From Promicromonospora umidemergens (lineage in GTDB: Bacteria; Actinomycetota; Actinomycetes; Actinomycetales; Cellulomonadaceae): a stretch of 64,000 bases of DNA. Positions 9,592 to 64,000 of this stretch are shown piece by piece. A model generated the notes under the pieces. The model made no database searches. It was not told the origin of the DNA and saw only the letters and a program-made list of their open reading frames with translations. Within the stretch, counting starts at the first letter, position 1; the number at the start of each line of letters is the position of its first letter. Both the position numbers and the translations under genes were made by a program. The stretch lies in contig NZ_JAMTCT010000016.1 of assembly GCF_024171995.1 (NCBI RefSeq), forward strand, positions 1 through 64,000, given 5' to 3'.

Positions 9592-9596
9592 GGTTG

Positions 9597-9708
9597 CTCC
9601 ATCGAACCTGGCGTGAGCACCTTACGTCCACGCGCCACGGCTGCGGGGCAGGAAGTCTGCAGGTTGCTGCGGTGTCAGGGAGCCAGGACTCTCGACCGCT
9701 CTGGATGG
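9597..9708 (-). promoter_or_regulatory. Probable SAM-I (S-box) riboswitch upstream of metF
   Basis: Read on the minus strand, the leader holds the S-box hallmarks in order: ATCCAGAGCGGTCGAGAG, CTGGCTCCCTGACACC, GCAACC, and AAGGTGCTCACGCCAG. A closing stem pairs CCATC (9704-9708) with GATGG (9599-9603). The 3' strand of that stem overlaps the GGAG Shine-Dalgarno of metF, suggesting control of translation start: ligand-bound folding hides the ribosome site. The assignment rests on motif recognition, not a covariance search. Confidence 0.72.
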
Positions 9709-9730
9709 GATCGCCACCATGCTAAGCGAT

Positions 9731-24646: not shown

Positions 24647-24920
24647 TACCTGAGAGTTTTGCCGGTCCGCCGTGACCCTGCCGGAGGACCGGAGAGGATC
24701 GGGACGCGCCGACTTGCACCGTCGGTGGAGCCTCCGCACCCGGTGCCCGACCCTTCGACAGGCTCGGAGCACAGCGGCGGCGGCTCGCTTTCCAGAGTTG
24801 CCTCGCTGTGACGGTACGGGGGCCTGAGAGATTCCCGGGGAGGAAATTGCTCCTTCGGCGCCGGTGTTCCCGAGGCGCTCCGCCGACGGCGGTGGTGCGC
24901 GCCCGGCCGGACTCTCCCGT
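24647..24920 (-). promoter_or_regulatory. Tandem glycine riboswitch controlling gcv operon
   Basis: On the minus strand the first aptamer runs from GGGAGAGTCC through GGCGCCGAAGGAGCAA to AATCTCTCAGGC and AACTCTGGAAAGC. The second has CACCGACGGTGCAAG and ends AAAACTCTCAGGTA. These are the conserved core pieces of the gcvT-type glycine RNA. The P2/P3 arm of the first aptamer is extended, and a dispersed repeat (24753-24766) lies between the aptamer cores. Glycine binding is expected to switch on gcvP-gcvT-gcvH. Confidence 0.88.
24753..24766. repeat. Dispersed TCGACAGGCTCG-type repeat, copy 3
   Basis: CTTCGACAGGCTCG between the two glycine aptamer cores, inverted relative to the copies at 17249 and 22238. 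On the RNA its GAGCCT can pair with AGGCTC 27 bases later, so it may form part of the second aptamer's outer stem. Confidence 0.6.
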
Positions 24921-24974
24921 CACGGCTGATGGCGGCACGGTCCTGGTGATCGAGCTGCCGACACCCGGGACCGT

Positions 24975-25274: not shown

Positions 25275-26180
25275 CTAGCCCAGGTCGATGTCGCGGGCCG
25301 CCGCGACCATCTCGTCCACGACCGCCCGCACCGCCGGCCCGGGCTCGTGCCGGTTCTTGCGGTGCCGTACCACCATGCGCCGCGAGCCGAGACCGGCCAG
25401 CGCGACCACGGCGACACCTTCGGGCACCTCTTGCTGCAGAGCCAGTGCGGGCAGCATCGCGATCCCCTGGCCGGCAGCGACGAGCGAGATGGCGGTGTCG
25501 AAGTCGTTGTAGGCGTGTCTCATGTCGAAGGCCGTGCCGAGCTGAGCGGCGAGGCGCCCGACAGCGCGAGCCGCAGCCGAGCCGGCCTGCGGGCCCACCC
25601 ACATGAGCCCGGCAAGGTCGTCGATGCGTTCGGGTTCGGGCAGGCTCGTCGGGACCACGATGCGCCACGGCTCGTCGAGCAGCGGGACGTCGTGCGCGCC
25701 GCGCGGAGCCGGGGCGTCGACCTCGACGTCGCGCTCCAGCACTATCGCGTCCAGGTCGCCGGCACGCAGGCGACGGGTCGCCTCCGGCGGGTCGTACTCC
25801 TGCACGTCCACCTCGATGTGGGGGTGCCGCTCGGCGAGCGAGACGAGCATCGGCGCCACGACCGTACGGATGGCGGTCTGGATCGACCCGACCGAAACCC
25901 GCCCCGTGAGTTCACCGCCCAGGGCGGCAACGGCTTGACGCGCCTGGACCAGCTCCGCCTCGATGCTCTCGGCCGCGTCGGCGAGCACCCGGCCGGCCGG
26001 CGTGAGAGTCACTCCGCGAGGACCGCGGTCCAGCACATCGATGCCCTCTTCGGCCTCCAGACGAGCGATCTGCTGCGAGACCGCCGAGGGCGTCACATGC
26101 AGTAGATCTGCCGCTGCGAGCACTCCACCGGCGCGGTGCACGGCGAGGAGAAAAGCGAGTCTGCGCGGATCGGTGGGCAT
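25275..26180 (-). CDS. LysR-family transcriptional regulator
   Basis: 301 residues. The N-terminal winged helix reads LAAADLLHVTPSAVSQQIAR and the effector domain follows (ELTGRVSVGSIQT onward), the standard LysR plan. A perfect 23-base palindrome covers its own start codon, pointing to autoregulation. It is divergent from a small membrane protein that is the likeliest target. The effector is not known. Confidence 0.87.
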   Translation of the reverse strand: MPTDPRRLAFLLAVHRAGGVLAAADLLHVTPSAVSQQIARLEAEEGIDVLDRGPRGVTLTPAGRVLADAAESIEAELVQARQAVAALGGELTGRVSVGSIQTAIRTVVAPMLVSLAERHPHIEVDVQEYDPPEATRRLRAGDLDAIVLERDVEVDAPAPRGAHDVPLLDEPWRIVVPTSLPEPERIDDLAGLMWVGPQAGSAAARAVGRLAAQLGTAFDMRHAYNDFDTAISLVAAGQGIAMLPALALQQEVPEGVAVVALAGLGSRRMVVRHRKNRHEPGPAVRAVVDEMVAAARDIDLG

Positions 26181-38192: not shown

Positions 38193-38664
38193 CCCCACAC
38201 CGTAATCGGCAGACCGTCACTGAGCCGGGCGTGGTGGGGTGAAACGTCCTCCGGCACGTGCCCGAGGACACACCGAGCTCCGCCCGGAGGCGCGGGAAAG
38301 CCCGCGGGGCGACTTGTGTCAGCCGTGCTGGACGAGGGCACGGCACCCGCGGGCTCCGGTGGTCGCGAGAATCTCGCCACCTTGTCCCGTTGCGCCTGGC
38401 AGATCAGGAAGGCCCCGTGCTGAGCCACCCGACCGGCGTCGGCGCGAAACGCTTGCGCGTCACGCGACTAGCGCGCGACCACCTCATGGGTCCGATGTGA
38501 AATCACTGCGTCGGATCACCTCCTTTTCTCATGTGCCCACGAACTTACGCCTCGAGTCGACGGGCGCCCAGGTTTTTTCCTCGCGGCGAAATCAGGCGCA
38601 AGGTCGATAGCCTCGAGCACCTGTCGGAGCGACGACTTTTGGGGCGCCGACCCGTCTGCCCTGC
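38193..38664. other. Gene-poor region with an extended Shine-Dalgarno-like sequence
   Basis: No convincing gene in 472 bases between two divergent genes. It holds AAGGAGGTGATCC on the minus strand (38525-38513), identical in its complement to the 3' tail of 16S rRNA. Two tiny frames follow it on that strand: GTG 38506 (12 residues) and ATG 38487 (27 residues). Neither is supported by similarity. Promoters for both flanking genes should lie here. Confidence 0.5.
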
Positions 38665-59610: not shown

Positions 59611-60612
59611 ATGACCCGCAAGAAGGTGACCGACTACGTCGACACCAGCAAGATCGACTCCGAGAAGGTCCGGGAGAGGGCCGCGGAGGCTTCAGCCCTG
59701 CTGTCCGACGTCAGCTCCAGGGCCGCGGTACAGGCCGAGGCCCTTGCCGCACAGGCGCGGGGCCAGGCTTCGAGCGCCAAGGAATGGGCCCAGCCCCGAG
59801 TCAGCGACTTTATCGCCTGGCTGACGCCGCGCGCAGAGAAGGCCTGGCAGGACAGCCTTCAGGCTGCCGCGCCCCAGGTCGAGAGGGTCGCTGGGAAGGC
59901 AGGACCGCTCATCGACTCCGCACACGACAAGCTCGTGGACGACCTGCTTCCGAAGATGGTCGCCACGTTCAACGATGCCGCGTCCAACGCCGCGTCGGCG
60001 CAGGGCAAGGCAGCACTCGCCGAGTCCGTCACCGCCGCGGCGGACAGGGCGAACGAGAAGGGCTCCAAGAAGGGCTGGCTGGTCGCTCTGGCCGCCGGCG
60101 GTGCCGCGGTCGCCGGCTACGTGTTCTGGAAGCGTGCGCAGCCACAGACCGACCCCTGGGCAGAACCCTGGGAGCAGGGCACGGGGGCTGACTACACGGA
60201 CGGCACCGCGCGGCACGCGTCCGGCGTCGGCTCAGCGGCCGGCTCCGCCGTCGCCAAGGGCAAGGAGGCGGGGGCCAAGGCCGCACAGACGGCCAAGGAC
60301 CTCGGCGTCCGGGCGTACTCGGCAGCGAGCCCCGCGTTCGAGGCCGCCAAGGAGAAGGCTGCTCCGGTCTTCGACGCTGCGTGGTCTTCGGCCCAGAAGG
60401 CAAGCTCCGCCATGTCCGACGCCACCCAGAAGGGGCGCGACGGCGTCCACGACCCCATCGTGCCGACACCGGAGGCGGCCGGCAGCGGTACCACTGCGGC
60501 GCCGCCGGCACCGGAGAGCGCCGTCCTCGGCGAGCCGGTCCCTGAGCCGGTGGTCGACAAGACTCCGCCCGCGCAGCCCAAGCCGGCGGGGGAGAGCAAG
60601 CAGGAGGGCTGA
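59611..60612 (+). CDS. Ala/Lys-rich membrane protein of unknown function
   Basis: 333 residues. A long helical N-terminal region rich in Ala, Lys and Glu is followed by one transmembrane helix near residue 155-172 (WLVALAAGGAAVAGYVFW), a Trp/Pro stretch (DPWAEPWEQG), a second helical Ala/Lys region and a Pro-rich tail. The composition resembles apolipoprotein- or LEA-like amphipathic helices. A similar gene often follows cyclophilin in actinobacteria. A membrane-associated structural role is inference. Confidence 0.75.
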   Translation: MTRKKVTDYVDTSKIDSEKVRERAAEASALLSDVSSRAAVQAEALAAQARGQASSAKEWAQPRVSDFIAWLTPRAEKAWQDSLQAAAPQVERVAGKAGPLIDSAHDKLVDDLLPKMVATFNDAASNAASAQGKAALAESVTAAADRANEKGSKKGWLVALAAGGAAVAGYVFWKRAQPQTDPWAEPWEQGTGADYTDGTARHASGVGSAAGSAVAKGKEAGAKAAQTAKDLGVRAYSAASPAFEAAKEKAAPVFDAAWSSAQKASSAMSDATQKGRDGVHDPIVPTPEAAGSGTTAAPPAPESAVLGEPVPEPVVDKTPPAQPKPAGESKQEG

Positions 60613-60630
60613 CCTCCGTCTCACCCTCGG

Positions 60631-60675
60631 CAGCACAGGAGGGCCCGGCCGCTGCGGCCGGGCCCTCCTGTGCTG
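60631..60675. terminator. Perfect 20-bp bidirectional hairpin
   Basis: A 20-base arm beginning CAGCACAGGAGGG and its exact complement flank a five-base loop between converging genes. Confidence 0.9.
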
Positions 60676-60696
60676 CACGGATCGATCGACGCCGCG

Positions 60697-61899
60697 TCAC
60701 CCGCCGATCGGTGTTGCCCTGCCCGTGAACGGGTCCAGCTGGATGAAGGCCTCGGTCGGGTCGCCGTCGTGCACGAGCGACTCCTGGTTGACGACGTCGT
60801 CGAACGCGAAGGCGTACGCCTTGCCGTCAGCCATCTGCTCGTGGATGTACTTGGCGTAGTAGTTGGTCACCGAGTCCTGATAGAAGCCGGCAGGGTCCTG
60901 GGTCGGCTGCGTGGTGCTGTCGAGCAGGGCCGACCGGTTGAAGCCCGCGCACAGCGTGCGCGCGATAGCCCCGACGTCGTCGTTAGGGGCTGCCAGGTCG
61001 CCGGCACACCCGAAGATCGACTCGCCCGACGGCTTGGGGAACGTAGCGATGACAGCGCCGGACGTGTCGGTGAACGTCATCGTGTCGCCCGATACGGTAC
61101 CGAGGAACTTGGTGTCCGGCCGGTCGCCGTAGGGCACTACGGTCAGGGTCTCGCTGGAGTACTTGCTCCAGACCTGGTCGACGTAGTCCGACATGATGTT
61201 CGCGTCGATCTGGCCCGTGCCGACAGCGTGGCCGGGGGAGAGCACACGCAGCACCGAACCGTCAGGTGCGGTCTGCGCGAGACCGCCCCAGCCCTCCTGC
61301 TGGGACAGTGCCGAGACCACGTTGTCCCAGCCGTCCGGCTTGAGCATCCCGGTGTGCCGGAGCTCGCCGCTCGAGGAGCGCAGACCCGTCTGGTAGGGCG
61401 CGGAGAAGAAGTCGACCTGTGTGCTGTTGATCCACAGGCCGGAGTCGTTGAGCGTGTACTCCGTCCAGTTGAACAGGATGTCCCGGTTGGGATCGTCCGG
61501 GTTCTGTACGGCCGGCTGCACGAGCTGACCGTCGTTGACGATCTTGAAGTCCAGCTTGCTGCCGTACGAGAAGTAGACCCGGCCCGACAGCTTGGGCATC
61601 TGGATGGTGACGTCCTGCCCGTCGGCCGGGCCCGTGATCGACGCGTCCGGCGCCGGCTCAGGGACGGTTCCCGCGTCCGGCCAGGCGTGGAACACGCCCT
61701 CGGCGTCCGCGTAGCCGAGCTCGCCGCCGGACTCGCCGAGGACATAGATGAACACCTGGTCACCACGGCCCGAGTCGTTGGTGATGGTGAGCGGGATGGT
61801 GTCGGGGACTGCGGTGGCTGTCGGCATGGCGACCGCTGCGGCCGACAAGGCTGCGGTCAGCGCGGCGGCGGTGCCGATGAGTTTCCTGGTCAGGGACAC
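60697..61899 (-). CDS. GH64 endo-beta-1,3-glucanase (thaumatin-like fold)
   Basis: 400 residues from GTG 61899 with GGAG upstream. A Sec signal peptide ends near ATAVP, so the enzyme is secreted. The sequence matches GH64 laminaripentaose-producing glucanases in length and in segments such as VYFSYGSKLDFKI, LFNWTEYT and FGCAGDL. The catalytic acids cannot be marked safely by eye. It would attack fungal cell-wall or storage beta-1,3-glucan. A large hairpin ends its transcript. Confidence 0.88.
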   Translation of the reverse strand: MSLTRKLIGTAAALTAALSAAAVAMPTATAVPDTIPLTITNDSGRGDQVFIYVLGESGGELGYADAEGVFHAWPDAGTVPEPAPDASITGPADGQDVTIQMPKLSGRVYFSYGSKLDFKIVNDGQLVQPAVQNPDDPNRDILFNWTEYTLNDSGLWINSTQVDFFSAPYQTGLRSSSGELRHTGMLKPDGWDNVVSALSQQEGWGGLAQTAPDGSVLRVLSPGHAVGTGQIDANIMSDYVDQVWSKYSSETLTVVPYGDRPDTKFLGTVSGDTMTFTDTSGAVIATFPKPSGESIFGCAGDLAAPNDDVGAIARTLCAGFNRSALLDSTTQPTQDPAGFYQDSVTNYYAKYIHEQMADGKAYAFAFDDVVNQESLVHDGDPTEAFIQLDPFTGRATPIGG

Positions 61900-62098
61900 G
61901 CGGTGCTCCTCGGATCACGAGGGGCCGGTCAGTTTGGGTGGTGCTGCCCCTCGCGTTCGAGGTTATGGAAGGAGTCCTGACTTGTCAGCACTCTGCGGGC
62001 GATTGCGGGTGAAAAAGCGCCGAAGCGGCCAAACATAGGGGAATCCCACAGGCCCGGCGTACGGGTTTTCGCTGAGCCGGTCGGTCCGACCACGGATA

Positions 62099-62132
62099 CG
62101 ACAGAAGCCCGGACGAATCCGGGCTTCTGTCG
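62099..62132 (-). terminator. 15-bp hairpin next to tRNA/tmRNA-like fragment
   Basis: CGACAGAAGCCCGGA pairs with its exact complement around CGAA. It sits two bases past the CCA of the RNA-gene fragment, where the terminator of that tRNA/tmRNA gene would be. Confidence 0.8.
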
Positions 62133-62134
62133 AG

Positions 62135-62172
62135 TGGTGGAGCCACCGGGACTCGAACCCGGAACCCCCTGC
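62135..62172 (-). other. 3' end of a tRNA/tmRNA-like gene; probable attachment site
   Basis: On the minus strand a complete T-arm CCGGGTTCGAGTCCCGG is followed by TGGCTCC, discriminator A and encoded CCA. The 5' half of a tRNA is absent: the upstream sequence cannot form the matching GGAGCCA acceptor strand, and a REP-like stretch takes its place. The tail GCTCCACCA and T-arm resemble the tmRNA 3' end, a common integration target. A second GCTCCACCA lies at 62173-62181. Read as an att site left by integration. Confidence 0.65.
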
Positions 62173-62289
62173 TGGTGGAGCGGGTTTCGACGCTCGCTCA
62201 CAAGGCTGTCTTGAGTGGGCTGGTGTTAGCCCTGTTACTGGTGCAGAAACGGCTAGATTCCGCCATTCCTGCGCCGCTCGGGATCAGCC

Positions 62290-62389
62290 TGACACGGTTG
62301 GCATTCGTAGGCAAGCGTTGTCGCCCGTGGTCGTCCGAACCGTGTCATGTCGCGTGTCACGGGCGGCAATCGTGTCAGGAACCGTGTCA
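62290..62389. repeat. Five CGTGTCA repeats near the att junction (possible integrase arm sites)
   Basis: Direct copies of CGTGTCA begin at 62341, 62353, 62371 and 62383 (steps 12, 18 and 12); an inverted copy TGACACG lies at 62290-62296. Three copies extend to AACCGTGTCA. Regular short repeats beside an att site are typical of tyrosine-integrase arm-type or excisionase sites. The rest of 62182-62478 holds no gene. Confidence 0.65.
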
Positions 62390-62478
62390 GCCTCGGCGGT
62401 TGGCTTAACGCGAGAAGTGAGCGGTGATCTCCGAACGGCGGATCGGCCGAGAGGAGACCACCACCCACTTCGGCGCTG

Positions 62479-63584: not shown

Positions 63585-63977
63585 TCAGTCGCGCCGGGCA
63601 TAGCGCGCATCGTCGAGACAGTTCTCGCTGTCGATAGGACCGAAGTCGTCACCGATCCCGCGCGAGCGACTCAAGAGCCACAGCTGTTCGCGGGCACTAC
63701 CACAAATTCGGCACGGCGTGGCTCTTGCGTAGACCACCCGCACAAGCTGGCGGCCGTACCACAACTCGCCCGGTGCTTCGAACCCGAAGTCCCTGAGGTT
63801 CGACGGGTCGCGCTCCAGCTCGCGACACACCTCCGGCGGCAGGTCAGCATCCTTGCGGGCCCGGTAGTCGGCCTGTCGACAGGCACGATCGCAGTATCGG
63901 GTGCCCTGGCGCAGCATCCCGGACAGGCCTGTGCCACATCGCAGGCAGCGCCGGATGGTCAAGGGAACAGTCGCCAA
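63585..63977 (-). CDS. Zinc-ribbon-like hypothetical protein
   Basis: 130 residues from TTG 63977; the 5' end may extend past the window or start elsewhere. Four N-terminal cysteines in CLRCG and YCDRACR suggest a zinc ribbon, and CRICG occurs again near residue 92 without its partner. No known family was recognised. It lies within the presumed integrated element. Confidence 0.6.
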   Translation of the reverse strand: MATVPLTIRRCLRCGTGLSGMLRQGTRYCDRACRQADYRARKDADLPPEVCRELERDPSNLRDFGFEAPGELWYGRQLVRVVYARATPCRICGSAREQLWLLSRSRGIGDDFGPIDSENCLDDARYARRD

Positions 63978-64000
63978 CGCACAGCGGTGCGCTCCGGTTG

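Follow-up and report, generated by a model that had tools for sequence, protein, structure and literature searches.

The DNA analysed here, referred to as the window, corresponds to positions 1 to 64,000 of contig C16, which is 170,100 bp long and belongs to a 6.6 Mb genome assembled in 65 contigs. Coordinates without prefix refer to the window and those preceded by C16 to the contig. Near the right end of the window the host sequence, which includes a gene for a glycoside hydrolase 64 protein (60697-61899), is followed by a hairpin, the 3' part of a tRNA gene, an array of CGTGTCA motifs and the first open reading frames of an element that extends beyond the window (Table 1). Elsewhere the window contains a SAM riboswitch (9596-9711), a glycine riboswitch (24802-24929) and an Ms_IGR-5 sRNA match that is barely above threshold (38292-38534).

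Table 1. Features of the left junction and of the element on contig C16
Feature	Position	Strand	Remarks
Host hairpin, likely terminator, once 3' of tRNA-Ala(TGC) before insertion	62099..62132	-	fold and relatives
Left attachment copy, host-derived 3' part of tRNA-Ala(TGC)	62135..62173	-	95% identity to right copy
Predicted strand-exchange zone, 11 bp, AACCCCCTGCT	62163..62173	.	comparison of both copies and of the G014 element ends
Inverted copy TGACACG of candidate arm-type motif	62290..62296	-
Candidate arm-type site 1, CGTGTCA	62341..62347	+
Candidate arm-type site 2, CGTGTCA	62353..62359	+
Candidate arm-type site 3, CGTGTCA	62371..62377	+
Candidate arm-type site 4, CGTGTCA	62383..62389	+
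First ORF of element, 206 aa	62479..63099	-	no Pfam match
Second ORF, 162 aa	C16:63585-64073 (window part 63585..64000)	-	no Pfam match
ApeA-like HEPN defence protein	C16:64117-65730		just beyond window; PF18862 193 bits, PF18739 73 bits, PADLOC PDC-S58 157 bits
MobF/TrwC relaxase with helicase part, 1169 aa	C16:70721-74230		one open frame; NCBIfam MobF 217.6 bits, cut-off 100
FolE (GTP cyclohydrolase I)	C16:79228-79845
Integrase	C16:88736-90058	-	Phage_integrase PF00589, Phage_int_SAM_3 PF14659, Phage_int_M PF22022
xis-like gene, 95 aa	C16:90062-90349		adjoins int; HTH_17 42.3 bits
Candidate right arm sites, two CGTGTCA, 12 bp apart	C16:90420 and 90432		between xis-like gene and tRNA

The minus strand of region 62099-62134 folds with -29.3 kcal/mol (z -8.0), and none of 200 shuffled sequences folded as well. 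A strict consensus scan for intrinsic terminators found none at either element end; the hairpins of both ends are strong by folding, yet lack a T-run. A first-pass annotation of this DNA had called the left structure a native-type terminator; the strong host hairpin is present, and its identity as a terminator is likely rather than proven. Next to it lie an encoded CCA (62135-62137) and a truncated RNA gene body (62138-62173, minus strand) made up of the acceptor 3' strand, T-arm, variable loop and anticodon stem 3' strand, and neither ARAGORN nor Rfam detected a complete RNA gene at this site of the window. The same annotation had recognized the T-arm, acceptor 3' strand and CCA correctly but left the type of RNA as tRNA/tmRNA-like. 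The gene is a tRNA, namely tRNA-Ala(TGC): positions 62137-62173 are 95% identical to C16:90520-90556, which form the 3' end of a complete tRNA-Ala(TGC) on the same contig. A tmRNA target was rejected because no tmRNA was detected by Rfam or ARAGORN and the complete gene that matches the fragment is tRNA-Ala. A viral or free form of the left junction was likewise looked for and rejected: exact matches to it in viral_contigs numbered 0, and it occurs in 3 of 221 family genomes.

The complete tRNA-Ala(TGC) at C16:90520-90593 (ARAGORN) is followed by tRNA-Ile(GAT) and, beyond it, by genes for a DUF3566 protein, GyrA and GyrB. The two tRNA-Ala copies are 28,383 bp apart. Direct repeats of the tRNA 3' end are thus present at both element ends, and the right one completes the gene. 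A search of the genome with the C16 tRNA-Ala (E <= 0.001) gave seven matches, namely the gene itself, the window fragment, two Ala(GGC), two Pro and one Trp, with no second TGC gene among them. In agreement with the earlier expectation that an element continues rightwards to a matching att copy with a complete RNA gene, both were found, the element lying within C16:62163-90593.

A complete tRNA-Ala(TGC) is present in all 12 same-genus genomes. In five of these (G002, G005, G006, G009 and G010) the site is uninterrupted and both flanks are joined: all or nearly all of the flank 60601-62173 aligns unbroken into a complete tRNA-Ala adjoined by a similar hairpin, and the other flank follows. A complete tRNA joined directly to the same hairpin and flanking gene in relatives is what an insertion predicts. 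The first-pass annotation had regarded a complete RNA gene at this place in close relatives as an argument against integration; such a gene does exist, but as the empty site. In the remaining seven genomes the left neighbour is different or only partly similar. In G008 and G007 the sequence at the tRNA is similar, over 94 or 57 bp, to the right end of the element, without paired CGTGTCA nearby, and these sites may therefore hold other insertions.

Two positions that form a base pair in the T-stem distinguish the attachment copies, with C-G in the left (host) copy and G-C in the right one. The stretch AACCCCCTGCT is identical at both ends and is bounded by this T-stem difference and by the loss of identity. 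Since the copies are identical over this stretch and then diverge, strand exchange probably occurred somewhere within 62163-62173. In the related element of G014 the host copy has an A-T pair in the T-stem, and the element copy again has G-C. The CCA is encoded in the host copy and absent from the element's copy, and the element brings a new hairpin (-32.5 kcal/mol) 3' of the tRNA. The working tRNA carries the T-arm and acceptor strand of the element.

The tyrosine integrase that had been predicted was found at the far (right) end, 28 kb off. It matches PF00589 with 59.8 bits and keeps all six catalytic residues (R239, K282, H355, R358, H380 and Y391) of the tyrosine recombinase signature R-K-H-R-H-Y. 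Comparison by sequence with solved structures gave one weak match (3nkh, 26 bits), and 37 plasmid records gave a match, all of less than 60% identity. An excisionase had likewise been expected, and a candidate gene does adjoin int at the right end; its identification is drawn from the HTH_17 match and its position only, the match to the excisionase domain model being weak and below cut-off.

Integrase matches at E <= 1e-60 were collected from 150 family genomes. Such matches are present in 13 genomes; the 17 matches represent 16 elements, because G097 has two pieces, and three of them reside in the window's own genome. ARAGORN predicted tRNA-Ala(TGC) at two of the 17 loci, tRNA-Ala(CGC) at 11 and no tRNA at four. 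By eye, two of the tRNA-less loci (G000 C4 and G008 C2) lie within a small protein gene, at its 3' end. At these loci (G000:C4 near 95688 and G008:C2:169114-177866) the core CATCTTCTG of the small protein gene resembles, again by eye, the tRNA-Ala(CGC) core ACCTTCTC.

A direct repeat of lag 12 (at least 7 of 8 matches) is present upstream of the xis-like gene in 15 of the 16 elements, that of C16 included. The exception, G069, has a full-length integrase and an xis-like gene on a 4.6 kb contig, at the same place as L053, and neither a lag-12 arm pair nor a tRNA was found in its upstream region (L068, G069:C6). Among the 14 right ends other than those of G069 and G085, the next commonest lag, 9, reaches at least 7/8 in six. 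At lag 12, 11 of these right ends score 8/8, and 1 to 4 of 500 shuffles do as well; the other three score 7/8, with 41 to 52 of 500 shuffles as good. For G085 the pair scores 8/8 (7 of 500 shuffles as good). In G061 the arm-like pair is weaker than the best lag-12 match and is found at a different place, and for G014_C46 the score of lag 9 exceeds that of lag 12. A lag-12 pair is also present in L058 (a MAG with a 47% integrase), and none was found in L059, which has a distant integrase (34%). Depending on the element, the arm motif is CGTGTCA, CGTGGCA, CGAGGCA, CGTGGAA or CGTGACA.

Both ends were located in 10 of 14 elements, which measure 4.5 to 72.9 kb, and not in those of C30, C4, G098 and G007; the left end of the C4 element, in the window's genome, was not found in C4:1-95688. 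Eight of the 10 two-ended elements, including that of C16, have a left four-site array in their own motif (at most one mismatch per site), located 200 to 260 bp from the core and arranged as two pairs (11-12 bp within and 18-20 between), where 0.12 to 0.36 such sites per 110 bp are expected by chance. The counts for both right and left ends are descriptive, since the motifs and the search window were chosen with the sequences in view and the elements are relatives of one another. The left end of G061 has a mixed array with two of four sites in its own motif. That of G127 has 0 sites in its own motif and, by eye, another repeat, GCGTACG, at similar spacing; the two ends of G127 may come from different elements.

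The C16 and G014_C34 elements are closely related. G014 belongs to a different genus, and its element has the same site, the 12/18/12 array, the inverted copy and the right pair; at the DNA level, C16:74587-75776 and 78829-87228 are common to both elements at 93-94% identity. Beyond the G014 element, at a distance of 766 bp, lies another tRNA-Ala fragment (L045:16203 and 16969), left by an earlier insertion into this site, and truncated second tRNA-Ala copies are also present in G011 (L046) and G025 (L047). In G002, a CGC-type element (117692-173046) contains a left end of the TGC type, including hairpin and tRNA fragment (G002:C4:147087-147331; L087, L120); the TGC site of G002 itself is empty, so that this is a captured junction in a mosaic element.

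We also compared 10 full-length integrases over residues 1-64 and 80-410. Pairs sharing the arm motif (n=12) have mean identities of 64.5% in residues 1-64 and 70.0% in residues 80-410, and pairs with different motifs (n=33) 47.3% and 65.7%, respectively. This difference was reached by 15 of 20000 label shuffles, a procedure that ignores relatedness. These values suggest that similarity of the integrase N-terminus tracks the arm motif.

The arrangement of the CGTGTCA copies in the window is exactly as the first-pass annotation had described it: four direct copies at 12/18/12 spacing plus one inverted copy. The rest of the 64 kb window holds one direct copy (33328) and one inverted copy (18918), and four copies within 50 bp are therefore not due to chance. 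The TGC-type left ends of G014 and G002 have an inverted copy at almost equal distance. We consider that the array is best read as arm-type sites of the integrase. Its location between the element end and the first ORF might instead suggest an operator or another array bound by a regulator. However, this ORF is on the minus strand and runs towards the array, which is consequently downstream of it, the motif recurs, again with lag 12, at the opposite end 28 kb off near the xis-like gene and int, and the left and right motifs change in step across elements. Binding of a regulator is for these reasons a very improbable explanation of the array.

Damaged or partial integrases among the relatives (G008_C2 contains one internal stop, G097 is split into two frames, the open frames of G007 and G125 are short, and the match in G085 is incomplete), together with a changed first catalytic Arg in G060, would fit a degenerate, immobile genomic island whose array is a fossil of past integration. 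For the C16 element this is unlikely, as it retains an intact int, xis-like gene, set of arm sites and pair of att copies, its relaxase gene is an uninterrupted frame of 1169 aa, and a related element in another genus (G014) has matching ends. A prophage is scarcely credible: relatives of the integrase do occur in 457 phage records, the 20 of these 457 that were listed being from Gordonia and Arthrobacter phages with 32.2-33.5% identity, but a Pfam scan of 26 ORFs of the element revealed no capsid, terminase, portal or tail family, and a MobF relaxase is present.

In that scan 11 of the 26 ORFs had no match at E <= 0.001. Other cargo matches are DUF2188, an NAD(P)H-hydrate dehydratase with YjeF_N part, a haloacid-dehalogenase hydrolase, a 6-pyruvoyl-tetrahydropterin synthase family protein, DUF2797 and a glycosyltransferase; the genes for all of these except DUF2188 form a cluster with that for GTP cyclohydrolase I (C16:74627-85000). 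Among regulators, one HTH protein scores above and one below the Pfam cut-off, and a ParB-like protein scores below it. A DUF4238 ORF overlaps the 5' end of the ApeA-like gene, a defence gene carried by one member of the element family. As to transfer functions, neither the coupling protein TraG-D_C nor the FtsK family (PF01580) had a match on C16 at E <= 1e-5, the latter corresponding to the FtsK/TraB-type translocase that AICEs use. Given its MobF relaxase and the lack of coupling-protein matches on C16, the element is probably an integrative mobilizable element (IME). The relaxase gene is present, and use of a helper would supply the remainder; the choice of mobilizable over conjugative or immobile is the weakest step of the explanation.

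Taking these results together, we regard it as very likely that a 28.4 kb element, C16:62163-90556, was integrated in the 3' half of tRNA-Ala(TGC) by its own tyrosine integrase, with the CGTGTCA copies as arm-type sites, the small HTH protein as directionality factor, and an integrative mobilizable element as the most likely class. According to this model the integrase (440 aa, right end) would have recombined an attP holding a copy of the tRNA 3' part with the chromosomal gene, at the 11 bp of shared sequence in the anticodon-stem/variable-loop region. The right end would then have received an entire tRNA, with the T-arm, the acceptor 3' strand and the hairpin downstream of it all derived from the element, and the left end the displaced host tRNA 3' part with the host hairpin. 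The N-terminal domain of the integrase would grip the arm-type sites and so bring the ends together, the small HTH protein adjoining int would act as directionality factor, and for mobilization or transfer the element would borrow a conjugation apparatus.

The C16 junction is an ordinary but very clear and well-preserved attachment junction. Elements of this kind are already known, and our understanding of site-specific integration is left unchanged; mildly new is the clean comparative picture, with arm sites changing along with the integrase. Judged by titles, no literature report on this actinobacterial element family was found, and its ends, empty sites and likely arm sites are now given. 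Arm motif, integrase N-terminus and target all vary among members that can be aligned with one another, so that the family offers a ready natural data set on changes of integrase arm and core specificity. A wider proposal, tentative and rather doubtful as a whole, is that Promicromonospora-type elements of 4.5-73 kb form a family with a common integration module, in which the two halves that read DNA evolve independently of each other: the arm motif, with its five or more variants, would track the integrase N-terminus, and the target would shift among tRNA-Ala(TGC), tRNA-Ala(CGC) and a small protein gene, used at its 3' end. The three elements of the window's genome have three different targets and one identical right arm pair, and their integrases might for that reason act on each other's ends. 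One of them is on contig C4, which has a TraG-D_C match at 78211 and a TrwC match at 25361; these coupling-protein and relaxase genes could act as helper for the C16 MobF element.

Among known systems, the IMEs treated in passages of a 2017 review (PMC5704250) resemble the C16 element in having a single tyrosine integrase, in targeting the 3' end of a tRNA gene, in restoring the target by one repeat, and in encoding a relaxase; IMEs do so without a mating apparatus, as the C16 element probably does. These passages state that no canonical IME known at that time encodes MobF, and the C16 element differs in this respect. AICEs such as pSAM2 share with it the tyrosine integrase, the tRNA 3' ends and the actinobacterial hosts, and with its family the related integrases on different tRNA genes and the presence of several elements per genome, as far as covered by the part of PMC3218068 considered; their translocase is of the FtsK/TraB type (PMC5704250, PMC3218068), whereas no FtsK-type match was found on C16. 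The MOBF T4SS-type ICEs of Actinobacteria, in the same part of PMC3218068, likewise have a MOBF/TrwC relaxase, but no match to their TraG-D_C coupling protein was found on C16; the G097 element has both relaxase and TraG-D_C coupling protein within its ends. The closest parallel for the array itself is offered by excerpts of a study of cluster K mycobacteriophages (PMC3203893). These phages differ from the C16 element in having no relaxase, in their tRNA-Lys or tmRNA targets and in the motifs and numbers of their arm sites. Pixie and the cluster K attP, however, have an RNA-gene core flanked on either side by arm-type sites, which in Pixie are direct copies plus one inverted copy; in CrimD, a putative stem-loop terminator separates the core from the arm site. 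According to the same excerpts, the arm consensus of cluster K differs between close relatives and was compared with the integrase N-termini.
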